From assembly GCA_009829735.1 (NCBI GenBank), contig CM020620.1:2917447-2981446 (forward strand): 64,000 bases of DNA. Direction: 5' to 3'. Each line of letters opens with the position of its first letter. The stretch's first letter is position 1. Origin of the DNA: Pyropia yezoensis (taxonomy: Eukaryota; Rhodophyta; Bangiophyceae; Bangiales; Bangiaceae). Made by a program: the position numbers and the translations under genes. The notes beneath the pieces were generated by a model. The model was given only the letters and a program-made list of their open reading frames with translations. It ran no database searches and was not told the origin of the DNA. Below are positions 14,272-51,031 of this stretch, piece after piece.

Positions 14272-14272
<1 letters not shown>

Positions 14273-14306
<34 letters not shown>

Positions 14307-24089: not shown

Positions 24090-24193
24090 CACCACCAGCG
24101 GACCCACCGGCCTCGTTGCCGCCCCAACACCCGCAGGCTGGGCCGCCTTGGCCGCCGCCAACACCACACAACCCGCCGCCTTGGCCGCTACTA

Positions 24194-30600: not shown

Positions 30601-31800
30601 GGCAGCACGGAGCTGAGCATCTGCAGGCGGCGTCAACCTCCCTACGGCCCTCTGCTCATCATCTTTTCCATCCCACTGCTGGCCTGACACTGCGCTCTGC
30701 CGTTGTACCGGGACAGTGCCACCACGGACCGGCCGTTTGCTGGTGTGCAGGTCTACTGCCTGTCCGTCGGGCGCTGTGAGGTTATCCTCTGCGTCCAATG
30801 GCCGCCCCAGCGCCACGAAGAAGCCCACAGACGGGCACCTGAGCATGTGCGTAGACAGCATCACCTCGGCGGAGCGAAAACCCCGACTGCGCGCCACGAC
30901 ATCCCAACCAGACACGACGTCGCGAACAATAGTCCGAGTTCGGGCTGCCACGCCGTCCAAACAGCCGGCTAGATGCTCCTCGTACTGCCGTTCCTGCTCG
31001 CCCGTGTGTGGAGTCCATGTGGGCCGGGATGCCCGTCGGAGATGTTGCTCAAGACAGTAGTAACACGACATGGACAAAACGTGCTCAAATGCACGAAAGG
31101 TGGACAGGTCGTCGTCGTCGTCGTCCACAGTGTCTGACGGGGTGCGGCGACCACCCACACCGAGTACGTCGCGAAGCAGTAGGTGTTGCGCTAGCCCGGG
31201 ACACGCGCGCCAACTTCCTCTTACAGGGCGATCTAAGGCATCCTCCTCTTCCGTCTGACACCGCCGGCGGGACGCCGAACGACAGAGCTCGGCAATGCCA
31301 TCAACCTCGCCGCCCATTACAAGCAGCAGTTGCCAAACCCTCAGGTCAACATCCACGTCCGCGGGGACGGGCAGCAGCCTAACGTTCCGCTGCCGGTGCA
31401 TGTCCTCGTCATCCGAGGGGTCTTCGGCCCCAGCACGGGGGACAGTACCGCTCGCGGTCGCCACTGTGAGCCACCGCGACCCGGATGCAAAGCGCAGTAC
31501 CCGACCACGACTGAAGGAAGCACGCGGTACTGCTACGAACCGCTTCAGTACCCACACGGCTTCATAGACCCCGTGCGCGATGCTACCGTGCAGCCAGCGA
31601 GTGCGGGAATGTAGCCTGGGTTGGCCCATTCTGTCCCACAGGTAGCCCGGATCCATGTCAACCATAGGCCGGCAAAGGTGCTCGCACCAGTCGACAAGAT
31701 CAGCCCATGTCCCAGAGCGTAGCAAGAGCCCTCCCCTGCCCTCCAGGGAACGGAGGACAAACAGATCGCGCAAAGACCCAAGGACGTAGACGACAACCCC
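27625..31800 (-). CDS. DNA N6-adenine/N4-cytosine methyltransferase fused to a SET domain
   Basis: An open frame of about 1,390 codons without a break. First ATG is at 31665 (MVDMDPGYLWDRM), but protein-like sequence runs upstream to a TGA at 31801, so an upstream exon is likely. Methyltransferase: motif IV DPPYNF at about 29745-29760, followed by motif I VLDMFAGTC at about 29165-29190. That order (IV before I) is typical of the beta class of DNA amino-methyltransferases, which use S-adenosylmethionine. SET domain: GVFALRPF (about 28470), a GYVNDGR segment and IALRDIAVGEELVADYG (about 27745-27790), matching the start, Asn-containing and GEEL-YG parts of SET lysine methyltransferases. Both substrates are inferred from family. 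The N-terminal 600 residues are unassigned. Palindrome cluster 2 lies upstream. Confidence 0.85.
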   Translation of the reverse strand, partial: GVVVYVLGSLRDLFVLRSLEGRGGLLLRSGTWADLVDWCEHLCRPMVDMDPGYLWDRMGQPRLHSRTRWLHGSIAHGVYEAVWVLKRFVAVPRASFSRGRVLRFASGSRWLTVATASGTVPRAGAEDPSDDEDMHRQRNVRLLPVPADVDVDLRVWQLLLVMGGEVDGIAELCRSASRRRCQTEEEDALDRPVRGSWRACPGLAQHLLLRDVLGVGGRRTPSDTVDDDDDDLSTFRAFEHVLSMSCYYCLEQHLRRASRPTWTPHTGEQERQYEEHLAGCLDGVAARTRTIVRDVVSGWDVVARSRGFRSAEVMLSTHMLRCPSVGFFVALGRPLDAEDNLTAPDGQAVDLHTSKRPVRGGTVPVQRQSAVSGQQWDGKDDEQRAVGRLTPPADAQLRAAVGTILEHVHVCTGADRLGTTVTRGLLGRGGRGDACAATPAGGGDNVSRTGQWRRKQRKVVGFLTVEDYRHPEWDRLSGNVPRVLRSVLAGLTAFSSPPPAGRGGTAPAWATASTVARRGLSPAPDRCAASARTIELAFRAACRVAGLMAEQQVVGGRRSGLSIGRGALLCGDGRQDRPCQQPQRPDCPGDAPQADLGEAWGVLDDAMGQVFATNACEFDDLLSAHATKVATRSNASRRRGGGSARGILGDGSSGRGETTTSTPTGEHTLPPFTSSSVQLVLCDPPYNFRADRSLEQSAHDVFTSDDMQRAARLFQTVVRPGGHVLNFCSAGQLGPWMVTLKALKDMDPVGRKSLSAFRVDGHPLVAIKEAHAVSSLRQSTTNLSNKVEFIVHATRAGVSREECYGMVNYRTWNAVPSRFLAHDTVIDNVRPPHFKEVVLRWRDGSRQWIRPEQKCLALILELILRFSQPGDIVLDMFAGTCVTAAACTRAVLGQHRLVISCASDAAIIDASRARLRREFVNQVLVRGYESSGVVISDVIAAARTIEAASVAASTATTAAGAVGETGSECRGGSGAAVGEEIELMINPPSSVMGHNAAVWEPPPGLPCHSALSLELVRYLAGRWAMQADAERLGRVAQTPGLARPGADVGVEVARLEGVGVGSWPRLHQCALAVEDAEVALHVSAAHLGLYVAQSRLAGGTACRGVFALRPFKRQDAIAPFWGTIVYADLTKQRVQTPRYAASELGAHGLTAREFSERAMEVVFDDLDVDGPNDAVEADVGGAGPGNQEHADVRPRHRRRRRYDGEEGGGGGHTMRKRQNQEGHNHGGGGPAADLGTGTMAGCRGVPTSLLIVPSPLCVTGYVNDGRATSPVDAEATLAQTGAGPADSDGRRGGASGRRVDREDIWQARPIVAIVANVDDAQPVRPTPANFVRPDIMVVIALRDIAVGEELVADYGADYVFSSTDWERRGRASRAGVLLSHSAPHTFAPMSG

Positions 31801-32661
31801 TCAAGGATACAGCAAAGATGGTGAAGACGTCTCTGCTCGCGCTACCGCCAACGCGGCACGCTCTGCAAAGATTGTGACAAGGTTGACCACCTCACAGAAT
31901 CACTTGACGGCATGGTGGTGACGAAGAGGAGGGGTCACAAACCGCGGAAGAGAACGCAGCCAAGGAAGCACCGTGCCGACAGTACACGTAGAGAGGAACG
32001 GCGATGACGGTGCCGAGAGGAGACCGGCAAGGAGACTGACACTGGTCGTATCTTAAGTACAAATGAATTCGCTTCCAGTACAGGGAACGCCTCGTCCGAG
32101 TTGTCCATTATCAACATATCTACCAAGCATTTAAAAGAATTACAGCATCGGAACCATGAGTTTGTTATGTACATAACATCGCGAGGTGTCAGAGCACCCG
32201 CACCGAGCCCGTGCTCGCGCTATGTACATAACGCGTCTCACGGGATTGCAATGCAGTCTGGCCCTGGTGGGGCGATTTTGCGCAACGACACAGCGGCGGG
32301 CTTCTCCACCCTTACTTGCTGTGCAATTGTAATCCTGTCAGATGTTTCTTGCCCCGTCGCACGAGCGCCCGTCCAGAGGTCTCGTTATGTACATAACGCG
32401 AACCAGGGGTTGTGCCCAAAGACAAGAGGCACGCACAACGACTAAATCGTCTCATCAGCAGCGTGATTGTGTCGTGTACAGTACGGCGAGCCGTGCAGAG
32501 TTCTCGATGTGAAAATCGACACCTGGAGATCGGGCGTGAACACTTCGCCGAGACATTATCACATGACAAAGCCGACGAGCCACGTCCTCCACCTTTCCAC
32601 AAACGACAGAAAACAACACCTCCAAAGCAGTCGTCGACAAGAGAGACAACGCTGTCAAGTA
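31801..32661. other. Intergenic region upstream of the methyltransferase-SET gene
   Basis: No convincing gene. It contains palindrome cluster 2 (32164-32398) and unusually AT-rich sequence for the window (around 32040-32130 and 32290-32340). It probably holds the promoter of the minus-strand methyltransferase gene. Confidence 0.55.
32164..32398. repeat. Palindrome cluster 2 (core GTTATGTACATAAC)
   Basis: Three sites: 32164-32177 (GTTATGTACATAAC), 32216-32235 (one mismatch from the 20-bp form) and 32383-32398 (CGTTATGTACATAACG). The spacers do not resemble those of array 1, so the palindrome itself is what is conserved. Confidence 0.92.
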
Positions 32662-33918
32662 CTACACAACCTTCGGCGGCCCTCGAGGATCGTAGTCTTT
32701 ATCCGACGAGCTAGACTGCTGAGAGTCCTCTGCGTCATCTTGATCATCCTTGTCCCGGGACGAGGTGTCTGACACGTCCGCCCCTTCAGCATGGTGGGCA
32801 TCTTCCACGTCACTGGCGTACACCATTTCTCCACAATTCTTGCACTTGCTCGGCTCGAGACACGGGGCGCCAGTGCCCTCACCAAACAACCACCCAGGGA
32901 CCTTGTATATGGCGTTCTGCAGCGGCTCGTCAAAACGTTGTAGGTAAAGGTGCAGCCGGATGGAGTGCGAGTAGGACAGCAATGCCGGCGCGGCGCGCAG
33001 TCGCCAGAGATCGTCCTCGTGACCGGCACCACAGTGAGCAACGTCCGCGCGGACGACGTGGAGACCACCCGCAGGCACAACCACCCTCTCAGGTCTCACC
33101 AGATGCGGGACATCCAGCTTCTTCTCCAGGCGATGGACAACGTGAAAGCTACCGGGATACCCGACCACAGTGAACCCATCCTTACCGGCCGCCATGGCAA
33201 AGTAGTTGTGGCTCCGCGGGCGCGAGAACGTCTGCAGCGGCGCTCTGCGGCTGTCGTCGGCATTCTGGTCAGTAGGGGGGTCTGGTTTCTCGGCACGGAT
33301 AGTGGCGTCAACGTGTGGCTGTTGCCGCACCGCTCGAGAGGTGGTCAGCAATACTCGGGCGCCGGACTCGGGCACCCGCACCAGTGGGCGCTCATCAAGC
33401 TGCTGCGCCGTCTGTGCACCGACCAGCACTTGGTGAGCCATGGCAGCCATCAGCATGTCACAGTGCAGCTTGGTCTTGTACAAGTCGTCCGCGTCCTTAT
33501 CGTCCCCATTGGCGGCCAGAGCCAACTGTCGCACGAGGAGCCGCCCCTGACAACGTTTCATTGCGGTTTCGTCGACCTTGCCAAGGTCGACGTTGTGGAT
33601 GGGCGTCCACATCGGGTCGTCGTCCTTGAGCGCGGCTTCACCCGGAAACTTGTTGATCACAGAATGAAGAAAATCGCCGACGGGGTCCATCTTGGTCGGG
33701 GGTGTGGATGATCCAGACGAGACGGCAGCGCCGTCGGCGCCGACTTCCACGCCACCACCACCCTCCACACGGGTCATGCAGGTCATCGCGTGCTTGACCA
33801 CCGTCCAGCCTCGCTCGACAAGCTCGGTCCCGTACTGGATACGCGCTAGGTTGGTCAGCAGCAAACGGGTGTCGGGGATGTGTCGATCGCGCTCCACCGC
33901 TGCGGGGGGGGCGCTAGG
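32662..33918 (-). pseudogene. 2-oxoglutarate dioxygenase-like C-terminus of a split giant gene
   Basis: This is the 3' piece of the gene interrupted by element C; the 5' piece is 44076-47814. The two join in frame after removal of the element and one CTAGG copy. About 418 codons. The middle reads FTVVGYPGSFHVVHRLEKK, then VVVPAGGLHVVRADVAHCGAG and, after a gap, SIRLHLYLQ. This pattern (Gly-Leu, Arg-Ala-Asp, His-x-Gly-Ala, then Arg-Leu-His-x-Tyr) is that of the last strands of 2OG-Fe(II) dioxygenase or cupin folds, where the His binds iron and the Arg binds 2-oxoglutarate. The HxD part of the iron site was not placed with certainty. A CKNCGEM cluster and an acidic Ser/Asp tail end the protein. 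Activity and substrate are unknown; TET/JBP-type DNA oxidation is only one possibility. Confidence 0.6.
33914..33918. other. Target-site duplication CTAGG (left)
   Basis: Five bases directly before the left LTR (33919). The same five follow the right LTR at 44076-44080. Confidence 0.92.
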
Positions 33919-34563
33919 TGTAGCGTAATGGAACCCAGGTTCCCGGAACCACAAACCACAAACACACACACAGAGACCACAGTCCGGAGTCCAGGAAGGA
34001 ACAGGTAAGAGCCCTTGCTGATCCACTCGCCCGCCACGATACGAGGCAAAAGTAAACAGGACAAAAGCCCGAGGGAGAAGGAACCCAAAGCACTGTTGAT
34101 TTTACAAGATGGCCCCGGGGAGAACCCCGGAGCACCCCTCAAGAACCTCCCCCCCTGGCCCCTCCAGGGGCCCAGAACGAGGCCCCCAGAGGGCGCCCCC
34201 AGCGGGCCAAGTGCCAGCAAGGCACTGGCCGCTCACCGGACCAACACACGAAAAGCAAGCGAAATCCCCCCACACACAAATGTCAATCCCCAAAAAAAAC
34301 CCAGTGGGAAAAAGGGGAAAGACACGAAATCACGCAAGGAAAACAAATGCGAAAAATCAAACAAATAACCCGAAGGTCAGTATGCCCCAACCCGGCAAGT
34401 CCTCCGCTCCGGGGGGACCAATCAGGGCACCGGTCGTGTCGCCACTGCCCCGGGCCACCGATGCAAGGATCCCAAGCCAGCGCGTGGTTCCACGTAACGC
34501 TGCCAGCCGGGTCCCAAGTCAGCCTCCCGGGTCCCAACGTTACCTGAGGGCCACAACGCCACA
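33919..34563 (-). repeat. 3' LTR of element C
   Basis: 645 bp, offset 9,512 from the other copy, with four differences. It begins TGTAGCGTAATGG and ends CAACGCCACA on the plus strand. Confidence 0.97.
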
Positions 34564-35134
34564 TGGCCCCCTCACTAGGGCCGAGCGTCCCGCTGGCCAA
34601 CAGGAAAACCGGGGAGAGGGACTGGAAAAGGTCCGACAGGGTTACACCAGGGTCACAACGAACGGGACGTGGGGCCAGTGTCTGCAGACAGGGTCCCCCC
34701 CGACAAGTGTCTCGAGGCAGAGGGTCCCGGGCAGACTGACCAGGGCGGTACGGGAGGGACCGAGGGCCACGCACAGGGTAACTACGGGGGTGTGGCGCAG
34801 CCCGCGCCGGCCGCCCGCCTGCATTCCCTCTCCCCTCGCCCTCCCCATGTGGCGCTCGGCCCATGGGGTGGGTAAGGTGGCGTCGGGATGCGGACGGGGG
34901 CCGGCGGCACACGAGCGCAGCCTAGGTTCCGTCGGAGTGGGGGCCCAGGGATAAGAGGGCCCTCACGGGCTCCCTCGTTCCCCGCGACCGGGACCCCAAC
35001 GCACCATCTTCCCCGCTACGCTTCCCCGTGGGCTCCTCAATCGTTCCCTCTACCCGTTCCCCTTTCCAACGTTCCCACGCACCCGTTCCCCCTGGTACCC
35101 CACTTTCCCTTATTGTGTCCCGTTACCCCGTCCC

Positions 35135-36910
35135 ATGGAGCCCGGCCGCGCCGCGACGAGCGCGTCGGCTGGCAAGGGCTCGACGGTTCCTGGCGGTCCC
35201 AGCGTGCCTGTGGGTGCGGCGGTACCTGGGGCCCAGGGCGGTCCCATCGTTCAAGGCGCAGCGGGTCAAGGGGCTCCCGGCGGCCAAGGCGTACCGGTTG
35301 CTGGGCCAGGTGGGAACAACATGGAACAAGAGGAACGTGGTGCGGGTCAAGCGTACGTCACGGTCCATGGCACGGTACCCGAGGACTTTGGTCCCGAGAC
35401 GGTCACCGCTTGGCGCCGGGAAGAGGCCCGCGGCTGGGTCACCGGTACCCTGGCCCATAAGGTCCTTCGAGTCGTGGACGGGTCCTGTCCCGGGAACGCG
35501 TTCCGGAAGCAGATGACCGCGATGGTCCAAGCGCGGATCCCGGTTAAGGCCGATCGGTCCCTGTCGATAACGGTGGTCCGGCACGCGGGAGAAATTGGGT
35601 ACGTGGAGCGGTTCAAGAGCATCCGGGACGAGGTCACCAAGGGGACCCTGCCTGCGGCCCCAGGTCCCGACTACATCGTGCTCCCGTCTCCCTACTTGGA
35701 CCCTACTTCCTTCAAGCCGTCCCATGGGGACCTTGTGGTCAGTCGGCTCCATCGGGACAAGAATGGGATCCTGGTCGGCTGGCACCAGCAAGAGTTCCCG
35801 AGTTGCCCGGCTACCCTCCGTAGACTCCACTACCTCCGGGTACCCCACTGGTTCGGTCACGTTGAGGTCCCTTTTGGGGCCCTGGTGGAACTGCCCCCGG
35901 TCCAGTACTACTTCGGGGACCTCCTTCGTGCCTCGGACCCCTTTGCCTGGTTCGTGCTCCGGACCGAGTGGGCCACGAACTGTGCCCTTTATACCCTGGA
36001 GCGGGCCCGTGGATCCGGTGAGATGTGTCTCCTTCCTTGTCTCCTTCGGACCTGGATCGACCGTGTTGGGGTCCCTGATATCTGCAAGGGTCCCAGTGGC
36101 GTGGACGAGGGAGCGGCGCGGGACCTCAAGGCCCTCATGGTTCTTAGCGACCGGGTGGTCGGGGCCCCTGGACTCCGTTGACGTTTGGGTCAGGCGGCTT
36201 CCAACCGCAAGGACCGTGCTTCCTATGTCCTGGTACGGTTCGAGACCCGGGACGGGACCTGGGCAGCGCTCGTGGACGAGGACCTGGCTCCCTTGGACCT
36301 TCTTTACTCGACGGACATCTTGGACGCGCGGGAGTTTGTCGGACCCAAGGACGGGAACGTGGGCCAGTCGGACGAGATTGTGCCTGGAAGTGGGTCCGGT
36401 GGTCCTGGTGCCCCTGGTGCCCCTGGTGCCCGGTCGTCGGGCTCCGTGGTTCAACGTGACCCTGCGCTGGGAAGCCGTACCGTCTTCGTGGCCAACTTGT
36501 TGGCCCATGGCGAGGTACCTGATGAGGAACTTCGGGACCTTGAGGGTAACCTGGCTACCTCAACCGTTCTGGGGCTCCGTAGTCTCTTTGGCGGGTCCGC
36601 GGACGTCTTGGCCCATGCTCACGTGGGGCCCTTGCTCTCGGCTTCCCTCCATACCACAGTCAACATTGGGTCCCGTGTAGCCGAATGGACCCGGGTCCAG
36701 GCGGGTTCCACGACGCCGGACTACAAGGGCCTGTTGGCGATCGTGGACCGTAATGGTATCCGTGGGGATCTGGGGTCAGAGTTGGCCACGGCCGAGGAGG
36801 AGGCCCGTAAGAGTTGGCATGGGGTTCGTGAGGGTTCCCGGGTCCGAGGTCGGGACGACATGGACCAAGACACTGACCCCCGTGCCGAGAGCCGGGCCCG
36901 TTACCAGTGA
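35135..36910 (+). CDS. Antisense accessory ORF of element C, one in-frame TGA
   Basis: ATG at 35135 sits in a good eukaryotic context (CCCATGG). The frame runs to TGA 36179-36181 and, in the same phase, on to 36910, about 591 codons in all. The first 75 residues are Gly/Ala/Pro-rich. The rest has normal composition, with segments such as HGDLVVSRLHRDKNGILVGW, RLHYLRVPHWFGHVEVPF and, after the TGA, SYVLVRFETRDGTWAAL. It lies between pol and the 3' LTR and converges on pol, like the plus-strand ORF of element A. I recognise no domain. Antisense ORFs are known in some plant Ty3/gypsy lineages; whether this is related is untested. The minus-strand frame 35123-36508 across it looks like a shadow. 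Confidence 0.65.
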
Positions 36911-37405
36911 GTCACACGGAGGGGAGGGACCCGAGGGACCATGAGTTGTTCTCGCATATGATGTTGATCCAAGGAGTCATAAAGTCTCTTTGTTTGTCAG
37001 CTTCCTTGGGACCCCTCCTTCAGTGTTGACCGTAGGAATCTCCTTCCGACTTAGCCGCATAGCTGGTGCAAAGGGACCCAAACGAGCCCAGACTGGGAAA
37101 TGGGGAACTAAAGGAAACGGAAGGGAAACGGGGGAGTTCATATCCAAGGGGGACGAAGTAAATCTCCATTCCAAAAAAAATCATTATCAATAAAACCCCT
37201 CCCGTGGGTTAGATGTCTTCCCCACCTACCCGAGTTGAACCCCTGACCTCATTGTTGCCCCCTTCCGATGACTTTCCCTGAGTTCGTTCCATTGACGGAC
37301 CATCATGCCTGCCCCTGAGTTTCCCTTTCAGGGTCAATAACGGGGCCACAGATCCGCACCCGGTTCAAGGTTCCAGGGCCACACAGCATAGATAGCCTTA
37401 AAGGG
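36911..37405. other. Convergent spacer between antisense ORF and pol of element C
   Basis: No gene seen. It contains an A-rich stretch (CCAAAAAAAATCATTATCAA near 37172-37191) that could hold polyadenylation signals for the plus-strand ORF. Confidence 0.4.
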
Positions 37406-40400
37406 TTACAGTAGTGCCACGGCCTCTTCCTCCCGCAGTGGGGGCTCGGTACCAACACGTTCACAGTACTGAACAACCTTAGCGCTGTCGAACTTATGGC
37501 ACGGTTCCCATGTGTCCTCGGACTCTGCGTACCCCCACCAGCGGACCAGGAGCCATAGGTTCCCATCACTGTCCCGGTCGTGGCCCACAAAACGTTCCCA
37601 GACAAAAGGGGTGCCTGAGTCTTCGTAGTCCATAGGTACAACCGGGTCTTGTGGCCCGTGTAAACGGGACGTGGAGTCAATCTGTCCAGCAGGCATGGGT
37701 GCCCGGGCCACATGGTCACTGCTTACCCTGTCACGGATCCCTTCAACCAGAACCGTGAATGTGTGCCCGTCCCTGTCCACGATACGATAGGGACCGTTGA
37801 CCTCCTGGTCCAACTTCTGCCGACTGTCATCATTGGTATCAACGTAGACCCAGTCCCCGATACGTAGGGCCTCGTTGACCGGAGTGACCCGCTTGTCGTA
37901 CCCTCTCTTGTACCGTTTCTGTGCCAGGTCCAGGTTCTTACGGACCGTAAAGGCCAGGTTTCTTAGATGGGCCCGTCTCGCCTCTCGGACCTGTCGCGCG
38001 GTACCAGTGAACTCCTTAGGGTACGGGGAGCCAGGGAGCTTGTCCAGGGCAAAGGTGCGGACCCGGTCAGGGATCACAAACTCAAACGGGGCCACACCGG
38101 TACTCTTTTGGGGCCTCGTGTTATAGGCAACCGTGAGCACGGAAACCAACTCGTCCCAATGGTCCTGGTGGTCCTCAACGTACGTGCGGAGCTGGGCCAC
38201 TATGGTACGATTAAACCGTTCCACCTGTCCTTGGGTCTGGGGATGGTACGTGGTGGAGGTAACATGCTGGATCCCAAGGAGCACGCAAACGCCACGGAAG
38301 TATGTGGACGCTAACTGGGGCCCGTTGTCCGTTAGTAGGGTCTCCGGGGGACCATAGGAAGCCAACCACGTATCCAGAAAGGCCGAGGCCACCACTGCCG
38401 CGTCCTGGCTGCCAAGGGGAACCACTCGGGTCAGCTTAGTAAACCGGTCCACCATAACAAGAAGGTACCGGTTCCTGCTGACGGTCCAGGGTAAGGGGCC
38501 CAAGAGGTCAAGGCACACATCCTTGAAGGGCTCCGTTGCAGGGAGCAGTTTGAGCGGGTTGGTCCGCCGTCTCCCTTGGACCCTGCCCTTGGAACACGAG
38601 GTACAGTTGGAAACAAAGGCGTGCACATCTGCCACCATAGACTCCCAGTAAAATACCCGCCTCATAGAGGTGTACATCTTGTTCATGCCTGGGTGCCCTG
38701 CGTGTCCCGGTTCATGTTCCAAGCTCAGGACTTCTTGTTGTAGGGCCTTGGGGACCACGATCTGGACCGCTCGGTCAAGAGGAGCCAATCGCACCAGTAA
38801 CTCTTCCGGCGTTTCCCCGTACCTTGAGTTCACGTTCTGGTCCATCTCTTTCCGTAGTTCCTGGCAACGCTGGTCCTGACCTTGGGCCTTGAGGATCCTA
38901 TCCACTGTCAGAGGAGGGTACCGTGTGCCTGTCTTGAAGTTTGGCCGGGTCCAACCAGTGACAAAGTTAGCCAAGGTCAACAGCGAGGGTATCTCGTCAG
39001 GTATGGGGCCCCTGTCGTGTCCCGTGGTATCCAAGCGTGACATAAAGTCCGCTGCGTGATGATGTTGTCCAGGACGGGACTCAACGGTATACTGGAACTC
39101 TGCCAGCCGAAGGCGCCAGCGGGCCAAACGTCCACGGGCCCCGTCCATATGTAACATCCACTTCAGGGCCGTATGGTCCGTTCGAACGACAAAGCGTGTC
39201 CCTTCAAGGTACGGTCGTAACAGAAACAGAGCCCAAACAACAGCAAGACACTCACGTTCCGTGGTACTGTAGTTACACTCAGCCGGAGTCAGCACACGGC
39301 TCCAGTAACCCACGGGCTTGTAGGCCCGGTCCCCTTGGTCCTGTAGCAAAACGCACCCAATCTGGGTAGCGCTAGCATCCGTATCCACGATGTACTGACC
39401 CGTGCGTCTAGGAAGAGCCAGAACTGGAGTATGGGTCAGACGGTACTTGAGGTCCTCAAAAGCGTCCGTCTGGGCCGGGGTAAACTGTGGTAACGGGTCT
39501 GGGACCTTGGTACTGGTCATGGCCAATAGGGGTCGGGCTACCTTGGCGTAGTCCTTAACAAAGCGCCGGTACACATTGCACATCCCTAGGAAACTGCGAA
39601 GGTCCTTCTTGGTCCTTGGGGTCTTAGCTTCCCGGAGCCCAACCAGGTTCTTCTCGTTCACACGGAGCTGACCCTTACCGACAATGCGCCCGAGGTACTC
39701 AACCTCATCCTGGAACAAAAAGCACTTGGTAGCCTTGAGGGAAACACCGGCCCTACCGAGTAACCCAAAGATCTCTTCCAGATGGGCCAGGTGGTCCTTA
39801 TGGTCCTTGGAGAACACGATGATGTCATCCAGGTACACAAGGCACGTCTTCCACTTAACCCCAGACAGGGTCATATCAATGGCCCTCTGGAACGTAGCCG
39901 GGGCGTTGGTAAGACCAAATGGGAGCCGGATGTATCTGAAGGTTCGTTCGTGACAAGTAAACGTAGTCTTGTCTTGGTCCTCAGGAGCCACAGGGATCTG
40001 CCAGTAACCACAGTTGGCGTCCAGCATGGAGAACACGGTAGCCTCTCCCAGGAAATCGATACAATCGTCCATGCGCGGTAACGGGTAGGTATCCTTAACC
40101 GTGACCTCGTTCAAGCGCCGGTAATCCACACTGAACCTAGGGGTACCATCGGCTTTCGGGACCAAAACAACCGGAAAGGACCACTCAGCCTTGGACGGTT
40201 CAATAACCCCGAGCCGGGTCTGCTTTTCCACTTGTTCCTTGATGAGGTCCCGTTGATGGAGCCCGGTACGGTACGGTTGGGACCGAATGGGTTTGGCCCC
40301 TTCCTTGAGGGTAATCCGGTGAGGGGTCACATCAATGCGTCCCAGTTGCCCGTTCCATAGGTCCTTGTAAGGGTCCAAAAGTTCGCGTACAGCCTGGTGT

Positions 40401-41596
40401 AGCTCAGGCGGGATCAAATCATACGCGACCTTGGGCATCTGGACCGAGGTTCCTTCAGGCTTCTTGTCCGTCGTGTCCGGCTCAGGGACCGTGGTTCCGG
40501 CGGGTCGCTTGGGAGTCACGTCCTCCGGTGCCGACGCTTGGCTCAACGGGTTCCCTTGCTCCGGGCCCAGGGTGACAAGTGGTGCGGCCCCCTCACTAGG
40601 GGCCGACAAGTAATCCGCAGGGACCTCGAGCACGGGACCATCGTACGGTATGGCCACGCCAATGGCAAAGTTCTTGGGCAGGTTGACAGCCCGGTCCGAG
40701 ATGTTCATAACATGGATCCGAAAGTCCCGTCGGGTCCGTATCGTAGCCAGTGCGTTGTGTAAACGGAGCCCCTTCTTAGCCATCTTATGGGGCCTCTCGT
40801 ACAATAAACACTTCCCATTGGTACCGCACTTGACATAAACCGCTTGTAGGGACCGAGGAGCCAAAGTCACGCCCTTGGACAGGTACAGGGCCGAGGGATC
40901 TTGACGGATAGGGTTGCCCTTGACAGGAAAAGCGCTCTGGGCCTTGCTCTCCCAGGTCCTCTTGGCGTAGGACAGGAACCCAAGGTTCCAAAGGACCGAC
41001 TCGGTCCCAGGGTAGATAGCCTTGACATGTTCCTTTTGGAAGTCCATCCCAAGGATCAATGGGACAGAAAGGGCCCTGACGACAAGCAACTCAAACTCCA
41101 TCGGCTTCCCGTTGACAATGTCCGATAGTTCCAGGATTCCCCGGGCCTTGAGCAGTTGCCCGGAAGCGTCACAAACATGGGTAGACTTAGGAGCCCTAGA
41201 AGCCAATCGTTGCCATCCACAGGGTAAGATGTCCTCGCGTACCACACTGGGTCCCGCACCTGTGTCCAAAATGGCCGTCGTTTCCTTAGGGTCCTCTTGG
41301 TCCAAACGTACAAAAGCATTCAAAGCAAAGTTCCTCTTACGCAGTACAAGCAAGGTGCCCTTGAACCCATATGGCTTCTTCATTCCCAATCGACGTCGGA
41401 GCCCAGACTTGGACCGCCGTGCCAAAGAGGGTGAACAGGAACAAGGGGTGGGCAAAACAATAGGAGACTCAGAACGAACAGGTACAATGGGGCGCTTGAA
41501 GATCTTCGAGAACCCCAGCTTGGTTGCAAACGAGCAGGTACTGTCCCGACGATGGGGAGGGGACCTCTTGGATCCGCCCCCCGTTACTCTTTTCCC
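37406..41596 (-). CDS. Pol polyprotein of element C (PR-RT-RNase H-IN-chromodomain)
   Basis: One intact frame of about 1,396 codons, entered by -1 frameshift from gag at 41590-41596. Protease: AILDTGAGPSVV and LILGMDF. Reverse transcriptase: [30 protein letters not shown] and the catalytic VYLDDIIVFS (about 39800-39840). RNase H: YIVDTDASATQIGCVLL. Integrase: an HHCC finger (HPGMNK...CTSC), then DLLGPLP, LTDNGPQLAS and GQVERFNRTI for the D-D-E triad. The C-terminus is a chromodomain (LLVRWWGYAESEDTWEP), which binds modified histone tails in related elements. All key residues are present, so this Pol may be active. Confidence 0.95.
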   Translation of the reverse strand, partial: GKRVTGGGSKRSPPHRRDSTCSFATKLGFSKIFKRPIVPVRSESPIVLPTPCSCSPSLARRSKSGLRRRLGMKKPYGFKGTLLVLRKRNFALNAFVRLDQEDPKETTAILDTGAGPSVVREDILPCGWQRLASRAPKSTHVCDASGQLLKARGILELSDIVNGKPMEFELLVVRALSVPLILGMDFQKEHVKAIYPGTESVLWNLGFLSYAKRTWESKAQSAFPVKGNPIRQDPSALYLSKGVTLAPRSLQAVYVKCGTNGKCLLYERPHKMAKKGLRLHNALATIRTRRDFRIHVMNISDRAVNLPKNFAIGVAIPYDGPVLEVPADYLSAPSEGAAPLVTLGPEQGNPLSQASAPEDVTPKRPAGTTVPEPDTTDKKPEGTSVQMPKVAYDLIPPELHQAVRELLDPYKDLWNGQLGRIDVTPHRITLKEGAKPIRSQPYRTGLHQRDLIKEQVEKQTRLGVIEPSKAEWSFPVVLVPKADGTPRFSVDYRRLNEVTVKDTYPLPRMDDCIDFLGEATVFSMLDANCGYWQIPVAPEDQDKTTFTCHERTFRYIRLPFGLTNAPATFQRAIDMTLSGVKWKTCLVYLDDIIVFSKDHKDHLAHLEEIFGLLGRAGVSLKATKCFLFQDEVEYLGRIVGKGQLRVNEKNLVGLREAKTPRTKKDLRSFLGMCNVYRRFVKDYAKVARPLLAMTSTKVPDPLPQFTPAQTDAFEDLKYRLTHTPVLALPRRTGQYIVDTDASATQIGCVLLQDQGDRAYKPVGYWSRVLTPAECNYSTTERECLAVVWALFLLRPYLEGTRFVVRTDHTALKWMLHMDGARGRLARWRLRLAEFQYTVESRPGQHHHAADFMSRLDTTGHDRGPIPDEIPSLLTLANFVTGWTRPNFKTGTRYPPLTVDRILKAQGQDQRCQELRKEMDQNVNSRYGETPEELLVRLAPLDRAVQIVVPKALQQEVLSLEHEPGHAGHPGMNKMYTSMRRVFYWESMVADVHAFVSNCTSCSKGRVQGRRRTNPLKLLPATEPFKDVCLDLLGPLPWTVSRNRYLLVMVDRFTKLTRVVPLGSQDAAVVASAFLDTWLASYGPPETLLTDNGPQLASTYFRGVCVLLGIQHVTSTTYHPQTQGQVERFNRTIVAQLRTYVEDHQDHWDELVSVLTVAYNTRPQKSTGVAPFEFVIPDRVRTFALDKLPGSPYPKEFTGTARQVREARRAHLRNLAFTVRKNLDLAQKRYKRGYDKRVTPVNEALRIGDWVYVDTNDDSRQKLDQEVNGPYRIVDRDGHTFTVLVEGIRDRVSSDHVARAPMPAGQIDSTSRLHGPQDPVVPMDYEDSGTPFVWERFVGHDRDSDGNLWLLVRWWGYAESEDTWEPCHKFDSAKVVQYCERVGTEPPLREEEAVALL

Positions 41597-43289
41597 GAGG
41601 GTCCCGGCTCCCGGGAACCGACGGTAACATGGCACACTTGGTCCGCCTCATCATCTGACAAGTTGATCCATTCACACAGAGCCTGGACCATGGCAACACG
41701 TATCTGGCGATGGAACTGACGGTCCGCGTTGGGCTTGACCTCGGTACTCTGGCTCCGGCCCCGAGTAGCCGCAAGGAAGGAGTCCCGGGCCTGGATAACC
41801 GCTTTCCGTTGGGCCTCGGATAGCATGGAACATTGATGGGCCATGTGGCCCGGTTCCCAGCAAAGGTAACAACGGTACGGGCGCCGGCTATCCATGGTAC
41901 GTACCCCCACGAACTGGGGCGCGGATCCCTTGAACCCAAACACTTGGCCCGACCCGTTCTTCTCAGTTTCCTTGTCAAGGGGGCCCTTAAGGATCGTCGA
42001 GGGGCCCATAGGATTGACGGCCATTAACGGTGACGGGTCCGGGGTGGGCTTAGCCCGAAAATCAGTAGGCCTGCGGGCGGAAACAGAGGGACCAGCCTTT
42101 CTCGAAGAGGACCCTTGGGCCATCTTAATAACGTCCGTGGCTGCCTTGTACTTGCCCGCAGTAAAAGTAACCAACTGCTGGTACGTGCGATCGGGAACAT
42201 TGTAGACAAACGCGTCAGTGCGCAGGTACTCAGGGAGCCCTTGGATCAGCTGCTGTTTCATGGTGCCCTCGGTATGGATGTTCCCACACAGTTCCGTTAG
42301 GCCCCGGAGACGGACCGCGAAGGCCTCGATGCCCTCGTCTGGTTCCTTAGCGGCCCGACTGAACCTGTCCTGAGCCAGGGCCAGTGCATGGGGCTCTGCG
42401 TACGTCTCTAGGAACCAGTTAACGGCCTCTGGGTAACTTGTGATCGAGGAGCCACCAGACGCGCTGGAGGAATCCGGAAGGGCCCGTGTGTACCGTAGTT
42501 CCGCGTCACCAGAATGAAATGTGGGATCGCATAAAGGGCCATGCCCTCGGAGACCGCGTTGTCGTTACAAGCCTTTACCAGTTTGCGGAGCCACGTGAAC
42601 ACTTTTAGGGCCTCCTTACCAGAGAAATTAGGGTACCCAGCGAAAGAGTGTTTCATGTTACGCGCGACCCGTCCCATCTTACGAGCCTCACGTGTCCCAT
42701 AGGTAGCCTTCTCGTTCCTCAGACGGTACGTACGGTAATCTAGGACCCGAGCAAAGCGATCGTCTGAACACTTGATGACCTGGGGCTCGGTCCGTGGGTA
42801 TTCAGGGGTCTCAAGGTCCTCCTTATCCAGGACAGAAGAAAACGTGGTACCCGAGGAAGAGGACGTACAGGAACCACTGGAATGGTGACGACGCCGACGA
42901 CGGCGGGAACGGGAACGATTGGAACGACTGGTATCATGGGACCCACCCTGGCCAGCAGGACTCTTGCTCAGGGCCTGGGATACAGTAGCCAAAATCTCAT
43001 CTCGAAACATTTCCAGAGTAGTAACAATGTCTTGGGACCCAGCAACAGGAGCCAAAGGTGGAACTCGGGTCCCTGTCTCAGAACCCGTGTCCCGACGTAA
43101 ATCCTGACCCATAGTAGCCCGAATCCCACCCGGGGGCTCTGTCCCCCGACGCGGAATCCCTGTCTGCCCGCCTCCGCCACGGCCCAACGGACCCGAGGGA
43201 CCGCCACGACCGCGACCAGCGGGAGTAACCATAGAAGTATCCAACGGCGCACCACGGCCCCGACCTCCCGAGGGAACAGGGTCCGTCAT
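41584..43289 (-). CDS. Gag of element C, one frame break
   Basis: ATG at 43289 (MTDPVPSGGRGRG) is used; the frame opens earlier only with a non-ATG codon. The first 110 residues are Gly/Arg/Pro-rich, followed by an Arg/Ser stretch. The capsid-like part runs to about 42,520, where the frame must shift by one base (about 42510-42530): the following frame reads TFHSGDAELRYTRALP and continues to a CCHC knuckle (CYLCWEPGHMAHQC, about 41870) and the stop at 41584. So one base was gained or lost, or a sequencing error is present. The gag stop GAG TAA follows the slippery site directly. Confidence 0.85.
41590..41596 (-). promoter_or_regulatory. -1 ribosomal frameshift site GGGAAAA, element C
   Basis: It is read G GGA AAA in the gag frame, followed by GAG TAA. 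Shifting back one base enters the long pol frame. Element A has GGGAAAC GAG TAA in the same position. Confidence 0.8.
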
Positions 43290-43409
43290 GTTGGCCGTAC
43301 GGTACTCGACCTGGACCAAAAGATCTCGTCACCAGAAACAGGAACCAAGGAACCAAACGCTACCGAGAAAGAAGAGGGCTGTCCCGATACGGGAGAGAAG
43401 TATAGCCCA

Positions 43410-43426
43410 CCCCTACTGCTCCACCA
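43410..43426 (-). other. Primer binding site, element C
   Basis: Minus strand TGGTGGAGCAGTAGGGG, four bases inside the 5' LTR. It is identical to the site of element A except for one base. Confidence 0.8.
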
Positions 43427-43430
43427 TAAA

Positions 43431-44075
43431 TGTAGCGTAATGGAACCCAGGTTCCCGGAACCACAAACCACAAACACACACACAGAGACCACAGTCCGGA
43501 GTCCAGGAAGGAACAGGTAAGAGCCCTTGCTGATCCACTCGCCCGCCACGATACGAGGCAAAGGTAAACAGGACAAAAGCCCGAGGGAGAAGGAACCCAA
43601 AGCACTGTTGATTTTACAAGATGGCCCCGGGGAGAACCCCGGAGCACCCCTCAAGAACCTCCCCCCCTGGCCCCTCCAGGGGCCCAGAACGAGGCCCCCA
43701 GAGGGCGCCCCCAGCGGGCCAAGTGCCAGCAAGGCACTGGCCGCTCACCGGACCAACACACGAAAAGCAAGCGAAATCCCCCCACACACAAATGTCAATC
43801 CCCAAAAAAAACCCAGTGGGAAAAAGGGGAAAGACACGAAATCACGCAAGGAAAACAAATGCGAAAAATCAAACAAATAACCCGAAGGTCAGTATGCCCC
43901 AACCCGGCAAGTCCTCCGCTCCGGGGGGACCAATCAGGGCACCGGGCGTGTCGCCACTGCCCCGGGCCACCGATGCAAGGACCCCAAGCCAGCGCGTGGT
44001 TCCACGTAACGCTGCCAGCCGGGTCCCAAGTCAGCCTCCCGGGTCCCAACGGTACCTGAGGGCCACAACGCCACA
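43431..44075 (-). repeat. 5' LTR of element C
   Basis: 645 bp with the same ends as 33919-34563. On the minus strand this is the upstream LTR and probable promoter of gag-pol. Confidence 0.97.
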
Positions 44076-44080
44076 CTAGG
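44076..44080. other. Target-site duplication CTAGG (right)
   Basis: Matches 33914-33918. It lies inside a Pro-Ser codon pair of the interrupted gene. Confidence 0.92.
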
Positions 44081-44699
44081 CATGTCCAGGGCCAGGTAAG
44101 TGTAGTCAAGGAGCGCCAAGCCACGGTTACACATGAGTGTCTCGGCCGCATTACCCATTGCGTCCCACGTGGACCGTAGAACAAAGTCGCGGCTCTGGTG
44201 CCCCAGGGGCAGCAGGAGAGCAAAGGGCGGCAGCGGCGTCCGCACAGCAGTATCACGGGGCCCGGAAAAGAGCTCCAATGCCCGGCGATTCACCTTGGCC
44301 GCCTCCTTCATACTGTCCGGGATGTCGGGTACGGTATCCTCATAGGCCTGGTCGTCGTCCTCCTGGGAGCCTCCTGGAGCACTTGGACGCCCTAGTGTAA
44401 CAGTGCGATTGCGAGCGAACGCTCCATGACAGCCACCTTGTCCACGGCCACCCCCTCCACTGCCAGCGCTTCCGCGGCCACCGGGAGCACCAGCACAACT
44501 TTTCCCCTTCCTTTGCGGCGCCGTCCGGCGACGCTTCTTCTTGGGCGGTGGCACAGGTGCTCCGCCACTAGAATAAGAATCGTTCTCTTCCGAAGGTGGC
44601 TTGCGCGGGCGCGAGAGTCGGTTTGACTTCCGAGCGCCCCCGTCGCCGACGGCACCGTCGCCACCGTTGGCCGGCTCCTCGGGGCTGGCTGTGCCCGTA

Positions 44700-45135
44700 A
44701 CGTCAGGCACAGCGAGTGCCTTGTCCCCGCCGTCGCCACCGTCACCACCGCCTCCGCCGCCCCCGCCGTCGCCGCCGTCACCTCCACCCCCGCTGTCGCC
44801 ACCGCCCCCGCCGTCGCCACTGCCCCCGCCGTCGCCACTGCCCCCGCCGTCGCCACCGTCGCCATTGTCGCCACCGTCGCCATTGTCGCCACCGTCGCCA
44901 TTGTCGTCATCGTCGCCACCGTCGCCACCGTCGCCACCGTCACCACCGTCGCCACCGTCACCACCGTCACCACCAGCGGCCCCGTCGGTGCCGGTCACGT
45001 GGTCGCCTCCAACCTCGCCATCACCTCCGCCACCGACACCACCATCACCTCCACCACCTCCGCTCCCAGCTCCGCTCCCAGCTCCGCTTCCAGCACCGTC
45101 GCCGTCACCGTCGCCGTCACCATCACCACCGGTAC
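44700..45135 (-). repeat. Gly-Asp-coding trinucleotide-rich microsatellite
   Basis: CCGTCGCCA/CCACCGTCA-type repeats, giving GGDGGDGGDGG on the minus strand. It forms a flexible linker in the split gene. Confidence 0.85.
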
Positions 45136-45721
45136 GGCGACCCATGCGGGCATCGGCATCAGACCTGGTCCCCGCGACGGCACTACTGCCACCCCCGTCA
45201 CGTAAACCGGCCCTGGTAGCCGCCGGCGCCGTATCCGACGCGGTGGCTGAATCGGTAGGGAGGGGGCGGTCCTGCTCATCCGGGGGAGGGGTGATGAAGG
45301 CCCGCACCTTGGCTGCCCACGCGGGGAAGAAGAGCTCGTGAAACGACAGGTCTTCCACAAACCGAAAAGAGTCTTCTGCACCACCCGACGCCGCCATGCC
45401 CCTGCTTCAGGGTCGACCCTTGCTCTTGCCCTTCCCGCTGCCACCGCCACCCACAGTCAAGACGGCTCGGGCCGGTGGCTGTGGAGCGTCATACTTGGTG
45501 AGGACCAACACCTGGAGCTTGTCCAGCAGCGAGAGGTTCTGTCGGGGACGCTTCTGCTTCAAAACGTCCGTCAGAGGCGCTCTGTGTGTGAAAACGGCAC
45601 ACCCAGCCGTAAGCGCCTGCGCCTCTGCAATTGCACGGTCCTTGGCCGATGCCATGCGAAGAAGGGTGCGCCGCAACTTCGCTTCGTTGATCGCGAAGCG
45701 CACGAAATAGACAAGAGTAGC

Positions 45722-45761
45722 AAAGAACGCAGAGTCGGTGCACAGAACGCAGAGTCGGTGC
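45722..45761. repeat. 20-bp tandem duplication that breaks the ParB-like frame
   Basis: AAAGAACGCAGAGTCGGTGC (45722-45741) is followed at once by the same 20 bases with one change. Removing one copy joins RRLTRGTDSAF to FATLVYFVRFAIN in a single frame. Twenty is not a multiple of three. Confidence 0.9.
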
Positions 45762-47909
45762 CCCGTGTCAGCCGCCGGATGGCATTGTTGCCCGCGTTGC
45801 GACGACCCGTCCATTCCGAACCGACCTGGAGCATGCACAGGCGCACCTCATTGCAGCACACCAGCAGTACGCCCCCCACAGTGCAAAGTGCCGGAGATGC
45901 ACACGACTCGGTCGTCAAGGCGTGCTCGCCCCGTGAGCCCACAGAGTCGGTGATGCGCTTGATAATGTATTCGCCAGACCGCTCATCCTCAATGTAGATC
46001 AGGGCAATCTTGATCATGCGTCGCAAGACGGCCTTGCAAATACGGGACGTTTCCGGGCCGCCCCTGGCGGTCGCGTCGTCTTGGTCCTCTTGTTCACGGT
46101 CCACCTCATCGGACTCACGGTGAGCAAGGTCCACGTCCATGGGGTCCTGCTTGCGGTTGTCCATGTAGTTGTAGAAGATGCGAATGAGGTCCGACAAACT
46201 TTGCTGGAACCGAGACTGCTTCTTGCCCAAAGGTCGGCGGTCGTTGTACTCTCGTAGCCAGCTTGTAATGAAGTGGATGTTGTCCACGTCGCTCATCTCC
46301 TTGGCCTTGGCGGCCGTCGAGTTGGCGCGCACCCCCAACGTGAGGGCCACCATGAGCGTCAAGGGTTGCCCGTCACGCCGAACGATGACCGCCACTTGCA
46401 CCTCACCGACAGCGTTGGCGTGCCCTTCCTTGTGCAGCTCCCGCAGCGCCGTCAGTCGATGAGCGCCGTCCACGAGTAAAAAGCTATCCTCGGCCCCGGG
46501 ACACTCTGGGTCTGCGCATACGGATAGCAATCCGTACGTGGTCGTATAACCAAAGTCACGGTACGACCGCAGCTGTTCGACGACAGTGCCGCGGTTGATA
46601 GTACGCACTGTCCGCGAGGCAATGCGAATGGCCTCGATCGGTACATACAGCTTCGTCGCGATAACGTAGTCGCTGGTAGGACCGACCCATGTAGGCGCCG
46701 ACGCCGTCACCACGCCACTGTCCATATGCGGTACTGGAACATCCCCTGGTGCTGGTAGCAGCTGCCCATTGTCAGACGGGGCCCGAGAGTTGCTGTCAGA
46801 ACGACTGTCATCAGCGACGCCACGGCCATCGCCATCTCCACCACTGCCCGGTCCGCCGGACCCACTCGCTCCGCCGGTGCCAGTACGACGACCAGAACTG
46901 CCGCCAGCGACGCCACGACCGTCGCCGTCTCCACCACCGCCTGGTCGGCCCGCCCCACCCGCTCCCGCTGGTGCACCACCTCCACCACCACCACCGCCAC
47001 CCCGACCGCCGCCCCGACCGTCACGCTCTGCGCTACGACTGCGACCACGCTCAGCGTCACGGGAAGTCGTGCGAGGTCGGTCAGCCCCGCCATCGGCCCG
47101 AGGTCCGCCGTCATCGCCTCCGCGTCCACCACGATCGGTGCTTCGAGCGTGACCGCGACCACGATCAGTAGCGTCATGGGAATTCGGGCGAGGTCGGTCA
47201 GCCCCGCCATCAGCTCGACGTCTGCCGCCATCAGCCGGACGTCCGCCGTCATCGCCTCCGCGTCCACCGCGATCGGTGCTACGAGCCTGACTGCGACCAC
47301 GATCAGTGGTGTCACGGGAAGTCGTGCGAGGTCGGCCACCACCGCCATCAGCTCGACGTCCGCCGTCATCGCCTCCACGTCCACCGCGATCGATGCTTCG
47401 AGCGTGACCGCGACCACGATCGGTAGTGTCTCAGGAAGTCGTGCGAGGCCGGCCGGCGTCGCGAAAAGCGTGACCAAGTCGGTCAGTGCCGCGGCTATCC
47501 CGACGTCCGCCGTCATCGTCACGACGTCTGTCGCGATCAGCGTTTCGCAGCGCGACTCCTCGGTCGCCATCATCGGCTCCGTGACCGATGCTGCCACCAC
47601 TAGAGATACCGCCACGTCCACCACCGCTACCACCACCACTACCACCACCGCGGGCACCGCCACGTCCACCATCGCTACCGCCACAACGGGGACCGCCACG
47701 GGGACCGCCCCGGGCACCGCCCCGGGCACCGCCCCGGGCACCGCTACCGCCACCGCCGCCACCACCGCCACGGCCACCACCATGGGCACCGCCAGCGGCC
47801 TTTCCCGGTGCCATCGGTCCTACAGAGCCACCAAGGGGTGTCGGCCTCGCCACCACGCGCACCACACAGATCGCCAACACCACACAACCCGCCGCATTGG
47901 TCGCCGCCA

Positions 47910-48480
47910 CCTGCGGGGGGGGCGAGGGGTGGGGGAGGGGGGTGGGGGGAAAGAGGGGAGAAAGGCACGGCAGAGAATCAGCGGCCGTCGGGTGGGGGCG
48001 CGGCTTCGGGGCAGCACGCCAGCAGCGGCGACGGCGCGGTTAAAAGAAACCGCGCCGCCGTTGCTGGCGCGACCTGCCCCCCTCCCCCAACAGAGCCGCC
48101 GCGCCCGTGCTCCCCCCCGGCCGGCCGCCGATCGGCCACCCCGCCCCCCCCACACTCTCCCCCCCTCCTCACGCCCCCTCCTCTTGCCCCCCCCACAACA
48201 AACGCACCGGTCCGGTCGCCGCCACCGCCACACAGCCCGCCGCCTTGGCCGCCACCAGCAGCGGGGGGGGTGGGGGGAGGGATGGGGGAAGGGAGGGGGC
48301 GCGGCACACCGTGGAGAGGGTGAGGGGGAGAGGGCGCGGCGCAACCGGGAAAGGGAGGGCGGGGGAAGGGAGGGGCAGCGGCACACCGTGGAGAGGGTGA
48401 GGGGGAGAGGGCGCGGCACGGCCGGGAAAGGGAGGGTGGGGGGTGGCACGCACAGAGCGCGGCGGGGAGGGCGGTGGGGG
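47910..48480 (-). promoter_or_regulatory. Promoter/5' intron module of the ParB-like gene
   Basis: Same family as 24194-25060. From high to low coordinates: G-rich 60-bp repeats with GCGCGGCACACCGTGGAGAG (48300-48440), a partial second module at 48190-48260, then a full copy with the hairpin GGCGCGGTT...AACCGCGCC (48032-48058), a C-rich stretch and the acceptor-like CCCGCAG/GTGGCGG at 47910. ATG follows 96 bases later. Confidence 0.6.
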
Positions 48481-50109: not shown

Positions 50110-51031
50110 CGGTTACTCACTCCCCGTGAAGCGCTCAGAGAAGCCGAGGTACTCAACCACGGTCCGCATGACACGCACAGGGCAGTTCCCCTTGTGTGAC
50201 AACCACTCTTCAATCTCGCCGCTGTGAAACACGCACATACACGGCAGCCTGCAGTGTGAACGACGGGAGCATAGACATTGCCCATGCGGGCACCGGGCAC
50301 ATGCCACCGGCCCCGCCGCCAGCGCCCCCCACGGGCACGCGCAGACCCGCTGGCAGTGCCGCCCACGGCCCGTGCGCCAAAGGGGCGTTGGCCACCGGTC
50401 CAGACGGGGGGGCAGTCGCCACAGAAGCCGCACGCATCGTACCCACATCAGGCACCGGGGACAGGCCCGGAAGCGAGACATCGACGTGCATCACTGGCAC
50501 GCGCAGACCTGCTGGCAGCGCCGGCCACGGCCCGCGCGCCACAGGGGCGTTGGCCACCGGCCCAGACGGGGGGGCACCCGCCACCACCCCCACCGCGGAC
50601 CCCCTCTGTGAGATAGAGCCCGCCTGTGGTACACGGCCCATCACAAAGACAACCTGGCCACGCGAGCCATGGGGCGTCGTCGCCGCCGTGCTGAGGTTGT
50701 CGAGCGCGGCGCTCAGAGTGCCGGCGGGCGCCGTCGCGGCTGTGGATGACCCCGGGATGTCCGCTGCACCCTGAGAGGCATCGACAGGATCCGTGGCCGT
50801 GTCATCGGTCAAATCGATGATGGGCGGGGGGACAGGAGCCCTTCCGTGGACCCCCGCCAAGTGCCCGACCGCTCCGCTACCCGTCAAGAGCGCGATATCC
50901 GCCTCCGCTCTCCCGGATGAGCGCCCAGCCCGCTCGGCCAACCGAGAGGACCGCCGGGGGGGCCGGCGCCCGTGCCGCTCCCCCGTGTCGTCATCCGAGC
51001 TGCGCCGCTGGTAGTTGCGGTAAACCGACAT
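50110..51031 (-). CDS. Protein with SUMO-interaction-like motif, multi-exon, unknown function
   Basis: ATG at 51031 (MSVYRNYQRRSSDDDTGERH), 20 bases after a CCCCAG acceptor-like site. A basic Arg/Ser N-terminus is followed at about residues 75-85 by PIIDLTDD, which fits the SUMO-interaction consensus (hydrophobic core plus acidic residues). A 27-residue unit (GPVANAPVARGPWPALPAGL and on) occurs twice, about 60 residues apart. The frame ends at TGA 50210, but another frame (HSGEIEEWLSHKGNCPVRVM to 50113) looks like the real continuation after a short intron, and it ends at GTGAGTAA, a good splice donor. The C-terminus is therefore uncertain. Confidence 0.55.

Follow-up and report, generated by a model that had tools for sequence, protein, structure and literature searches.

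A ParB-like and putative dioxygenase gene, interrupted by a retrotransposon, on a repeated and probably mobile giant element of the red alga Pyropia yezoensis

An interrupted gene with a single reading frame

We analysed a stretch of 64,000 nucleotides, hereafter the window, from the red alga Pyropia yezoensis (nori; also Pyropia (Neopyropia) yezoensis; C3:2917447-2981446). The genome searched comprised 107.5 Mb, with three large contigs (C1 to C3) of 43,592,136, 34,331,705 and 29,385,039 bases. On its minus strand, the window holds a long gene that is interrupted by a long terminal repeat (LTR) retrotransposon. This gene is probably one of several on a giant dispersed mobile element of P. yezoensis, and would encode a protein of ~1,700 amino acids (aa) in which an RGG-rich tail is followed by a ParB/DGxHR-like domain, a Gly-Asp linker that bears a basic patch, and a domain resembling 2-oxoglutarate (2OG)-Fe(II) oxygenases. 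It is a single gene present in many copies, and belongs to a linked gene set with a DNA methyltransferase and a helicase as neighbours. The gene and its lesions are listed here.

32662 to 47814, minus strand: whole interrupted gene with RGG/SR-rich N-terminus, ParB-like core, Gly-Asp repeat, KKKRRR basic patch and 2OG-like C-terminus, recognised by frame arithmetic, open copies and paralogues
44081 to 47814, minus strand: 5' gene part with RGG-rich region, ParB-like core, Gly-Asp repeat and the start of the C-terminal part
32662 to 33913, minus strand: 3' gene part, 2OG-dioxygenase-like, with a CxxC half-ribbon at its end
44730 to 45150, minus strand: Gly-Asp-rich repeat with a 9-bp period
45720 to 45759, minus strand: frame-shifting 20-bp tandem duplication, single in 14 of 14 other loci
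33919 to 44075, minus strand: LTR retrotransposon inside the gene with reverse transcriptase, RNase H and integrase (LTRs at 33919-34563 and 43431-44075, pol at 37406-41647)
33914 to 33918, no strand: target-site duplication CTAGG, left copy
44076 to 44080, no strand: target-site duplication CTAGG, right copy

The retrotransposon is 10,157 bp long, ends in TG...CA and is bounded by LTRs of 645 bp with 4 mismatches (99.4%). Its pol frame matches reverse transcriptase, RNase H and integrase families of Pfam above the cut-off and a chromodomain just under it. Two further open frames with coding-like codon use and without a Pfam match occupy its interior on the opposite, plus strand (34955-36181 and 36182-36910).

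The initial annotation had claimed one frame across this element and the 20-bp duplication, and all the numbers that we checked by recomputation hold. From 47814 to 32662 there are 15,153 bases, of which 4,991 remain without the insert and one CTAGG copy; removal of one 20-bp unit leaves 4,971 bases, i.e. 1,657 codons, stop included. The joined frame has in-frame stops at residues 128, 796 and 1,657 only, the internal two being TGA, and 17 stops appear in the same reading if the duplication is left in. The chance of such closure had been put at 1 in 9, an argument that is now superseded by stronger, independent evidence for a single gene from loci free of insert and duplication. Of the other loci examined, all 14 of the C-terminal part cross the LTR site without a break and all 14 of the N-terminal part contain the 20-bp unit only once. 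In addition, two natural copies, uninterrupted paralogues of the kind that the annotation had asked for in the same genome, span both halves with open frames of 1,738 aa (C3 20.31 Mb) and 2,012 aa (C2 12.17 Mb). Frame closure across the lesions is therefore no coincidence. Moreover, P0001, a protein of 484 aa (source label lgn) with 96% identity, continues past the point of LTR insertion.

Unlinked halves in relatives had been named as the observation that would speak against one gene. The halves are linked in all 22 loci of the main family and in 27 of 36 distant rows (both defined below), and one continuous gene across the retrotransposon is thus strongly supported. That two adjacent genes were mistaken for one because of the lesions is highly improbable. 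Among the 27 linked distant rows, 20 do have their two matches in frames of unequal length and 1.8-6.9 kb apart, where introns, decay or separate genes are possible, but in the remaining 7 the frames that hold the two parts are equally long and are taken to be one, and the two long natural copies contain both parts within single open frames. The window copy itself, with two nonsense codons, the 20-bp duplication and the LTR retrotransposon, is a pseudogene.

Copies in the genome and linkage to neighbouring genes

The ParB-like core gave 63 matching rows in the genome, namely 20 near-full ones (85-100%, window included), 7 fragments and 36 distant ones (31-45%), while the C-terminal part (C-part) gave 86. 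The 20 near-full loci and two split ones form the main family of 22 loci. A unique single-copy host gene is ruled out by these at least 22 loci. The initial annotation had read the gene without the context of an element: the single gene stands, but it is a multicopy gene of what is probably a giant element and not a unique host gene, and the copy described is dead.

Neighbours were tabulated with one row per locus from 27 methyltransferase, 57 helicase and 43 terminus positions, further pieces being left out. In 22 of 22 main loci the 2OG-like part lies downstream of the ParB-like part, and a methyltransferase gene follows at most 40 kb downstream (strand not counted; at C1:8.11 Mb it is on the opposite strand). 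A same-strand helicase gene is present within 60 kb in 20 of the 22, with a chance expectation of 0.016 per locus, and the candidate terminus described below lies upstream in 18 (chance expectation 0.012 per locus); all four features occur together in 16.

Among the distant rows, the 27 linked ones have a same-strand C-part within 8 kb. The C-parts involved number 25, one of them being common to three ParB rows near C1:43.58 Mb; this count used 34 C-part rows and left out further pieces of the same loci. Many distant rows may belong to different elements, because a listed helicase lies within 80 kb of only 9 of 35 and a listed terminus of only 7 of 35. The ratio of nonsynonymous to synonymous polymorphism (pN/pS) among 15 copies is 0.85 for the ParB-like core (pS 0.034) and 0.53 for the C-part (pS 0.063), and the constraint in both is weak, which speaks against the reading proposed above. 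The copies read as a recent amplification that is mostly decaying, with some inherited constraint on the C-part, and the linkage in distant rows shows longer-term conservation.

Assignment of the two domains

46456 to 46470, minus strand: DGAHR motif in the ParB-like core; of its residues, D, G, A and R are invariant and H is present in 12 of 15 copies compared
32956 to 33315, minus strand: putative 2OG residues, namely HxD (33307-33315), H (33034-33036) and R (32956-32958), each kept in 14 or 15 of 15 copies

A DGxHR-type motif is a mark of the ParB/sulfiredoxin-like fold. In the motif stretch of the core, LLVDGAHRLTALREL, the residues D, G, A, R, L, A and L are invariant in 15 copies and H is present in 12 of them. 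Three weak ParB-type matches from independent libraries overlap around this stretch, at residues 312-350 of the 619-aa frame: GmrSD_N in Pfam (E 0.093, 13.3 bits vs a cut-off of 33.2), DGQHR in NCBIfam (E 0.07, 12.8 bits vs 58.85) and the ParB family phrog_1033 in PHROGs (E 0.017). The only relative of the core in a large protein set is P0003, a hypothetical protein of P. yezoensis (91% identical). Searches by tblastn found no relative in plasmids (2 matches at E 5) or phages (none), and PDB sequences held none either, the one match (E 0.79) being an unrelated enzyme.

The motif of 2OG-Fe(II) dioxygenases is defined by HxD...H plus a distal Arg. The corresponding C-part residues are kept in nearly all copies (H196 15/15, D198 14/15, H289 14/15, R315 15/15), with one copy lacking D198 and another both H289 and H294. 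HxD and H also occur in P0002 (45-47% identical), whose sequence ends before the Arg. Besides P0002, the large protein set contained only P0001 as a relative of the C-part among the ~7,990 candidates scored, i.e. those sharing most words. The CxxC half-ribbon at the C-terminus matched with E 0.0002, below the cut-off.

Several results weigh against these assignments. The first two of the ParB-type matches are sub-threshold and the third is weak; no 2OG family in Pfam, NCBIfam or PHROGs matched the C-part, and no solved structure identifies it as a 2OG oxygenase. AlphaFold2 models of the core (1 sequence) and of the C-part (3 sequences) were unusable, with mean predicted local distance difference test (pLDDT) scores of 35.8 and 29.2. 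Nor was a Tet_JBP-type Pfam match seen on the proteins scanned. The domain names of the initial annotation are only partly supported: ParB-like is backed by the DGAHR motif and the three sub-threshold profile matches, whereas the dioxygenase is a pattern, HxD...H...R, without a profile match. The profile searches it had suggested gave weak matches of the ParB/DGQHR type and no 2OG or Tet_JBP family. It is conceivable, if on balance unlikely, that the gene is real and the domain names are wrong, the C-part being no 2OG oxygenase or the N-part binding no DNA. Neither domain has a significant profile or structure match, which would fit such a reading, but the HxD...H...R pattern is kept across copies and three independent weak matches coincide at the very residues that include DGAHR.

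Extent and ends of the giant element

16815 to 62965, no strand: extent of the giant element in the window, backed by homology to other copies; the right side is cut at 62966 by another insert

Homology to two other copies reaches 62965 on the right, and a third copy stops at 60029. The insert that follows, from 62966 to ~72160 in window coordinates, has inverted ends of ~583 bp that are 99.3% alike. Beyond this point the two other copies run on together for 3.4 kb and then break sharply at CCGTCAGTGCTGGAT. The 15-mer at this candidate right end has 82 occurrences in the genome (at most 1 mismatch) vs 3 for the reversed control. With the terminal 419 bases as query, 35 of 40 scored loci start at the first base (by eye, query included), but the query itself begins at that base, so this proportion alone shows no end. 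Without the LTR insert, the element measures ~39.4 kb between 16815 and the candidate end; the gene at 12570-14558, should it be a member, would raise this to 43.7 kb. A pair of candidate right ends at C3:15910177-15919717, 9.5 kb apart and pointing towards each other, looks like a derivative with two right ends.

Other observations speak against a delimited mobile element. The flanks of the copies L054 and L058 are identical for the first 60 outer bases and alike for ~233, and they have a 209-bp piece in common; of the three right flanks read, only that of L057 diverges, and the candidate right terminus rests on this one divergent flank. The left end was not reached, as leftward homology extends to at least 16815, the limit of the compared sequence. 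No transposase was found among the scanned frames of the window and the right-hand parts, and, by eye, none of the 52 genome matches to the EnSpm family Transposase_21 (E <= 0.1) falls into the interval from terminus to helicase in any of the 22 main loci. The right end is accordingly provisional; alternatively, L054 and L058 may share a target repeat or a duplication, or the true end may lie further out.

Inverted copies of the 15-mer (at most 1 mismatch) at the expected distance were not seen by eye in ~ten copies, except for a one-mismatch site 103 kb from C2:16789815. Membership in the EnSpm class is unsupported, given the lack of Transposase_21 between terminus and helicase of the main loci, a result that covers the right part up to the helicase only; the nearest match lies ~42 kb past the helicase at C1:11.67 Mb. 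A reverse transcriptase of its own was not found in the element parts seen.

Regions within 150 kb of a contig end make up 0.8% of the sequence and contain 14 of the 35 distant rows that map to the three large contigs, although several of the 14 are neighbours or apparent shared end blocks and not independent. This clustering, and the similarity of the two C3 copies for ~233 bp plus a further 209-bp piece past the candidate right end, could be taken as the trace of an immobile multigene family of the host whose copies arose by segmental and subtelomeric duplication. We regard such an origin as decidedly improbable, since none of the 20 main-family copies lies within 150 kb of an end, the copies are scattered over three chromosomes, and the C2 copy abruptly ceases to match the C3 copies at a 15-mer far more frequent than its reversed control. 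Distant rows near ends are found e.g. at C3:29374869-29382768, C1:43529642-43584543 and C2:16-25335, with one match ~2.3 kb from the end of C3.

Gene content and repeats of the element

27625 to 31800, minus strand: N6/N4 DNA methyltransferase with DPPY and FAG motifs and a SET-like C-terminus, open frame of 1391 aa
17404 to 24347, minus strand: UPF1-like superfamily 1 (SF1) helicase gene, four open frames in the window
12570 to 14558, minus strand: zinc-knuckle protein gene (motif by eye), cut by another insert at 12570; candidate member of the element
50110 to 51290, minus strand: RING-H2 gene remnant, its RING-coding stretch missing by coordinates vs another copy
24153 to 24934, no strand: 352-bp leader repeat, 2.2 units, upstream of the helicase gene and related to 47880-48298
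47880 to 48298, no strand: about one leader-repeat unit at the start of the ParB-like gene

Read from right to left on the minus strand, the order of genes is RING-H2, ParB-2OG-like, methyltransferase, helicase and, as a candidate member, zinc-knuckle. The methyltransferase frame matches PF01555 with 38.6 bits (cut-off 26.7), and its nearest solved relatives are RsrI and CcrM; the SET-like stretch, of 22 residues only, scores 19.8 bits with PF00856, under the cut-off of 22.4. The helicase frames match AAA_11 (73.9 bits) and AAA_12 (117.9 bits), both with cut-offs of 27, and UPF1 is the best match of the C-terminal frame in the PDB. At three other loci the helicase is continuous with the end of the 21075-24347 part, both lying in one open frame of >1,350 aa. 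RING-H2 was recognised by Pfam in another copy of the element. Among 13 open frames (7 + 6) of the right-hand part scanned with Pfam, only RING-type families exceeded the cut-off, on one frame, and a codon-position scan of this part revealed no clear gene.

The leader repeat of ~350 bp precedes both the ParB-like and the helicase gene, and one to ~six units stand before the ParB-like gene in four copies. Further tandem repeats occur inside the giant element at 53879-54272 (87 bp, 4.5 units) and 54769-55014 (82 bp, 3 units), and three near-identical palindromes of the type TTATGTACATAA lie at 32160-32410, between the ParB-2OG-like and methyltransferase genes. In the right part of the element, the copy L055 encodes two unknown proteins, P0011 and P0012, at 2785-3642 and 4595-5422, which are alike by eye and lie on opposite strands.

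A similar mix of genes is found in large DNA viruses, so that the element might be an endogenised or virus-derived DNA virus of red algae, with the ParB-like, methyltransferase, SET-like, RING and helicase genes as viral accessory genes. A size of at least 39 kb, with the left part unseen, would be compatible with this origin, and the helicase frame weakly matches phage terminase (phrog_7579, E 0.00018; Terminase_6N, E 0.05). The latter similarity is probably due to the P-loop ATPase core. Four scans of IMG/VR with the helicase, ParB core, methyltransferase and C-part returned no relative, single-protein scans of this kind reaching close relatives only, and the Pfam scan of selected long frames of the window and copies found no capsid or DNA polymerase family. 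A viral origin therefore seems improbable to us.

Relation to known elements and proposed function

The nori element was not found in the literature searched, which did not cover Petroll 2025 and Iyer 2014, and only PMC12477816 came close. According to that source, giant transposons of algae carry ParB-like domains fused to DNA methyltransferases, with a role that is only guessed (PMC12477816). These transposons and the nori element share a ParB-like domain and a DNA methyltransferase of the N4C/N6A type. In nori, however, the ParB-like domain has a 2OG-like fusion partner, and the methyltransferase, with its SET-like end, is encoded by a neighbouring gene of its own. We file the nori element as a variant of the algal giant transposons with ParB-like and DNA-methylase genes, because the ingredients are common to both but the ParB-like domain is joined to the 2OG-like domain and the methyltransferase stands apart. 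The nori family thus separates the parts, with a dioxygenase-like domain where the methyltransferase sits in the reported transposons.

Giant EnSpm (CACTA) elements of red algae have been described in Chondrus, at 16-20 kb (PMC6431247), and are cited for Bostrychia in PMC12477816. Like these, the nori element is red algal, enlarged and equipped with several accessory genes. Unlike these, it has a candidate end that reads CCGTCAGTG and not CACTA, exceeds the Chondrus elements in size and has no Transposase_21 from terminus to helicase.

KDZ transposons with TET/JBP genes have reportedly been described in fungi (Iyer 2014, as cited in PMC12477816). The nori element would resemble them as a giant DNA transposon tied to a 2OG-type DNA-modifying enzyme, putative in this case, but no KDZ transposase was identified (no genome-wide search was made for it) and no Tet_JBP profile matched. 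The ParB-like core shares a DGxHR motif in similar surroundings with bacterial ParB and DGQHR (DndB-like) proteins; it differs from them in its sub-threshold scores, its fusion to other domains and its location in a eukaryotic element. Terminons, the giant telomeric retroelements of rotifers (PMC6431247), are comparable in being giant and in that distant relatives of the nori gene concentrate near contig ends. Unlike Terminons, the nori main family is not telomeric, and no reverse transcriptase of its own was found in the parts seen.

We infer mobility by a dedicated enzyme, as well as a substrate and a binding site for the encoded proteins. The ParB-like domain would bind repeats of the element, for which the 350-bp leader repeats are candidates, and the neighbouring methyltransferase with its SET-like end would write a mark on DNA or chromatin. 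The 2OG-like domain would oxidise the methyl mark, and the element would thereby stay readable despite host silencing. Such an anti-silencing role is speculative and we consider it doubtful. Equally tentative, and in our view rather unlikely as a whole, is the wider proposal that the giant element encodes its own sequence-directed writer and oxidiser, i.e. a ParB-like domain fused to a 2OG oxygenase beside an N6/N4 methyltransferase with a SET-like end, which would mark its repeats against silencing, with related genes clustered next to chromosome ends. If the chemistry is true, the family would offer a testable example of self-marking by a transposon, with writing and oxidation of the marks combined. 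For annotation of the nori genome, the 22 loci of this repeated family, up to ~39 kb or more and many of them decayed, imply that their genes are not to be counted as host genes.

Further features of the window

The guanine-cytosine (GC) content of 2-kb stretches in the window ranges from 0.52 to 0.70, and a value of 65% is given for the P. yezoensis genome in PMC7423979. At 5277-12569, direct repeats of 687 bp (99.6%), 6.6 kb apart, surround gag/protease-like frames, and their ends are not TG...CA-like. Just to the left of these repeats, at 4820-5276, lies a frame that by eye resembles the chromodomain end of a pol.

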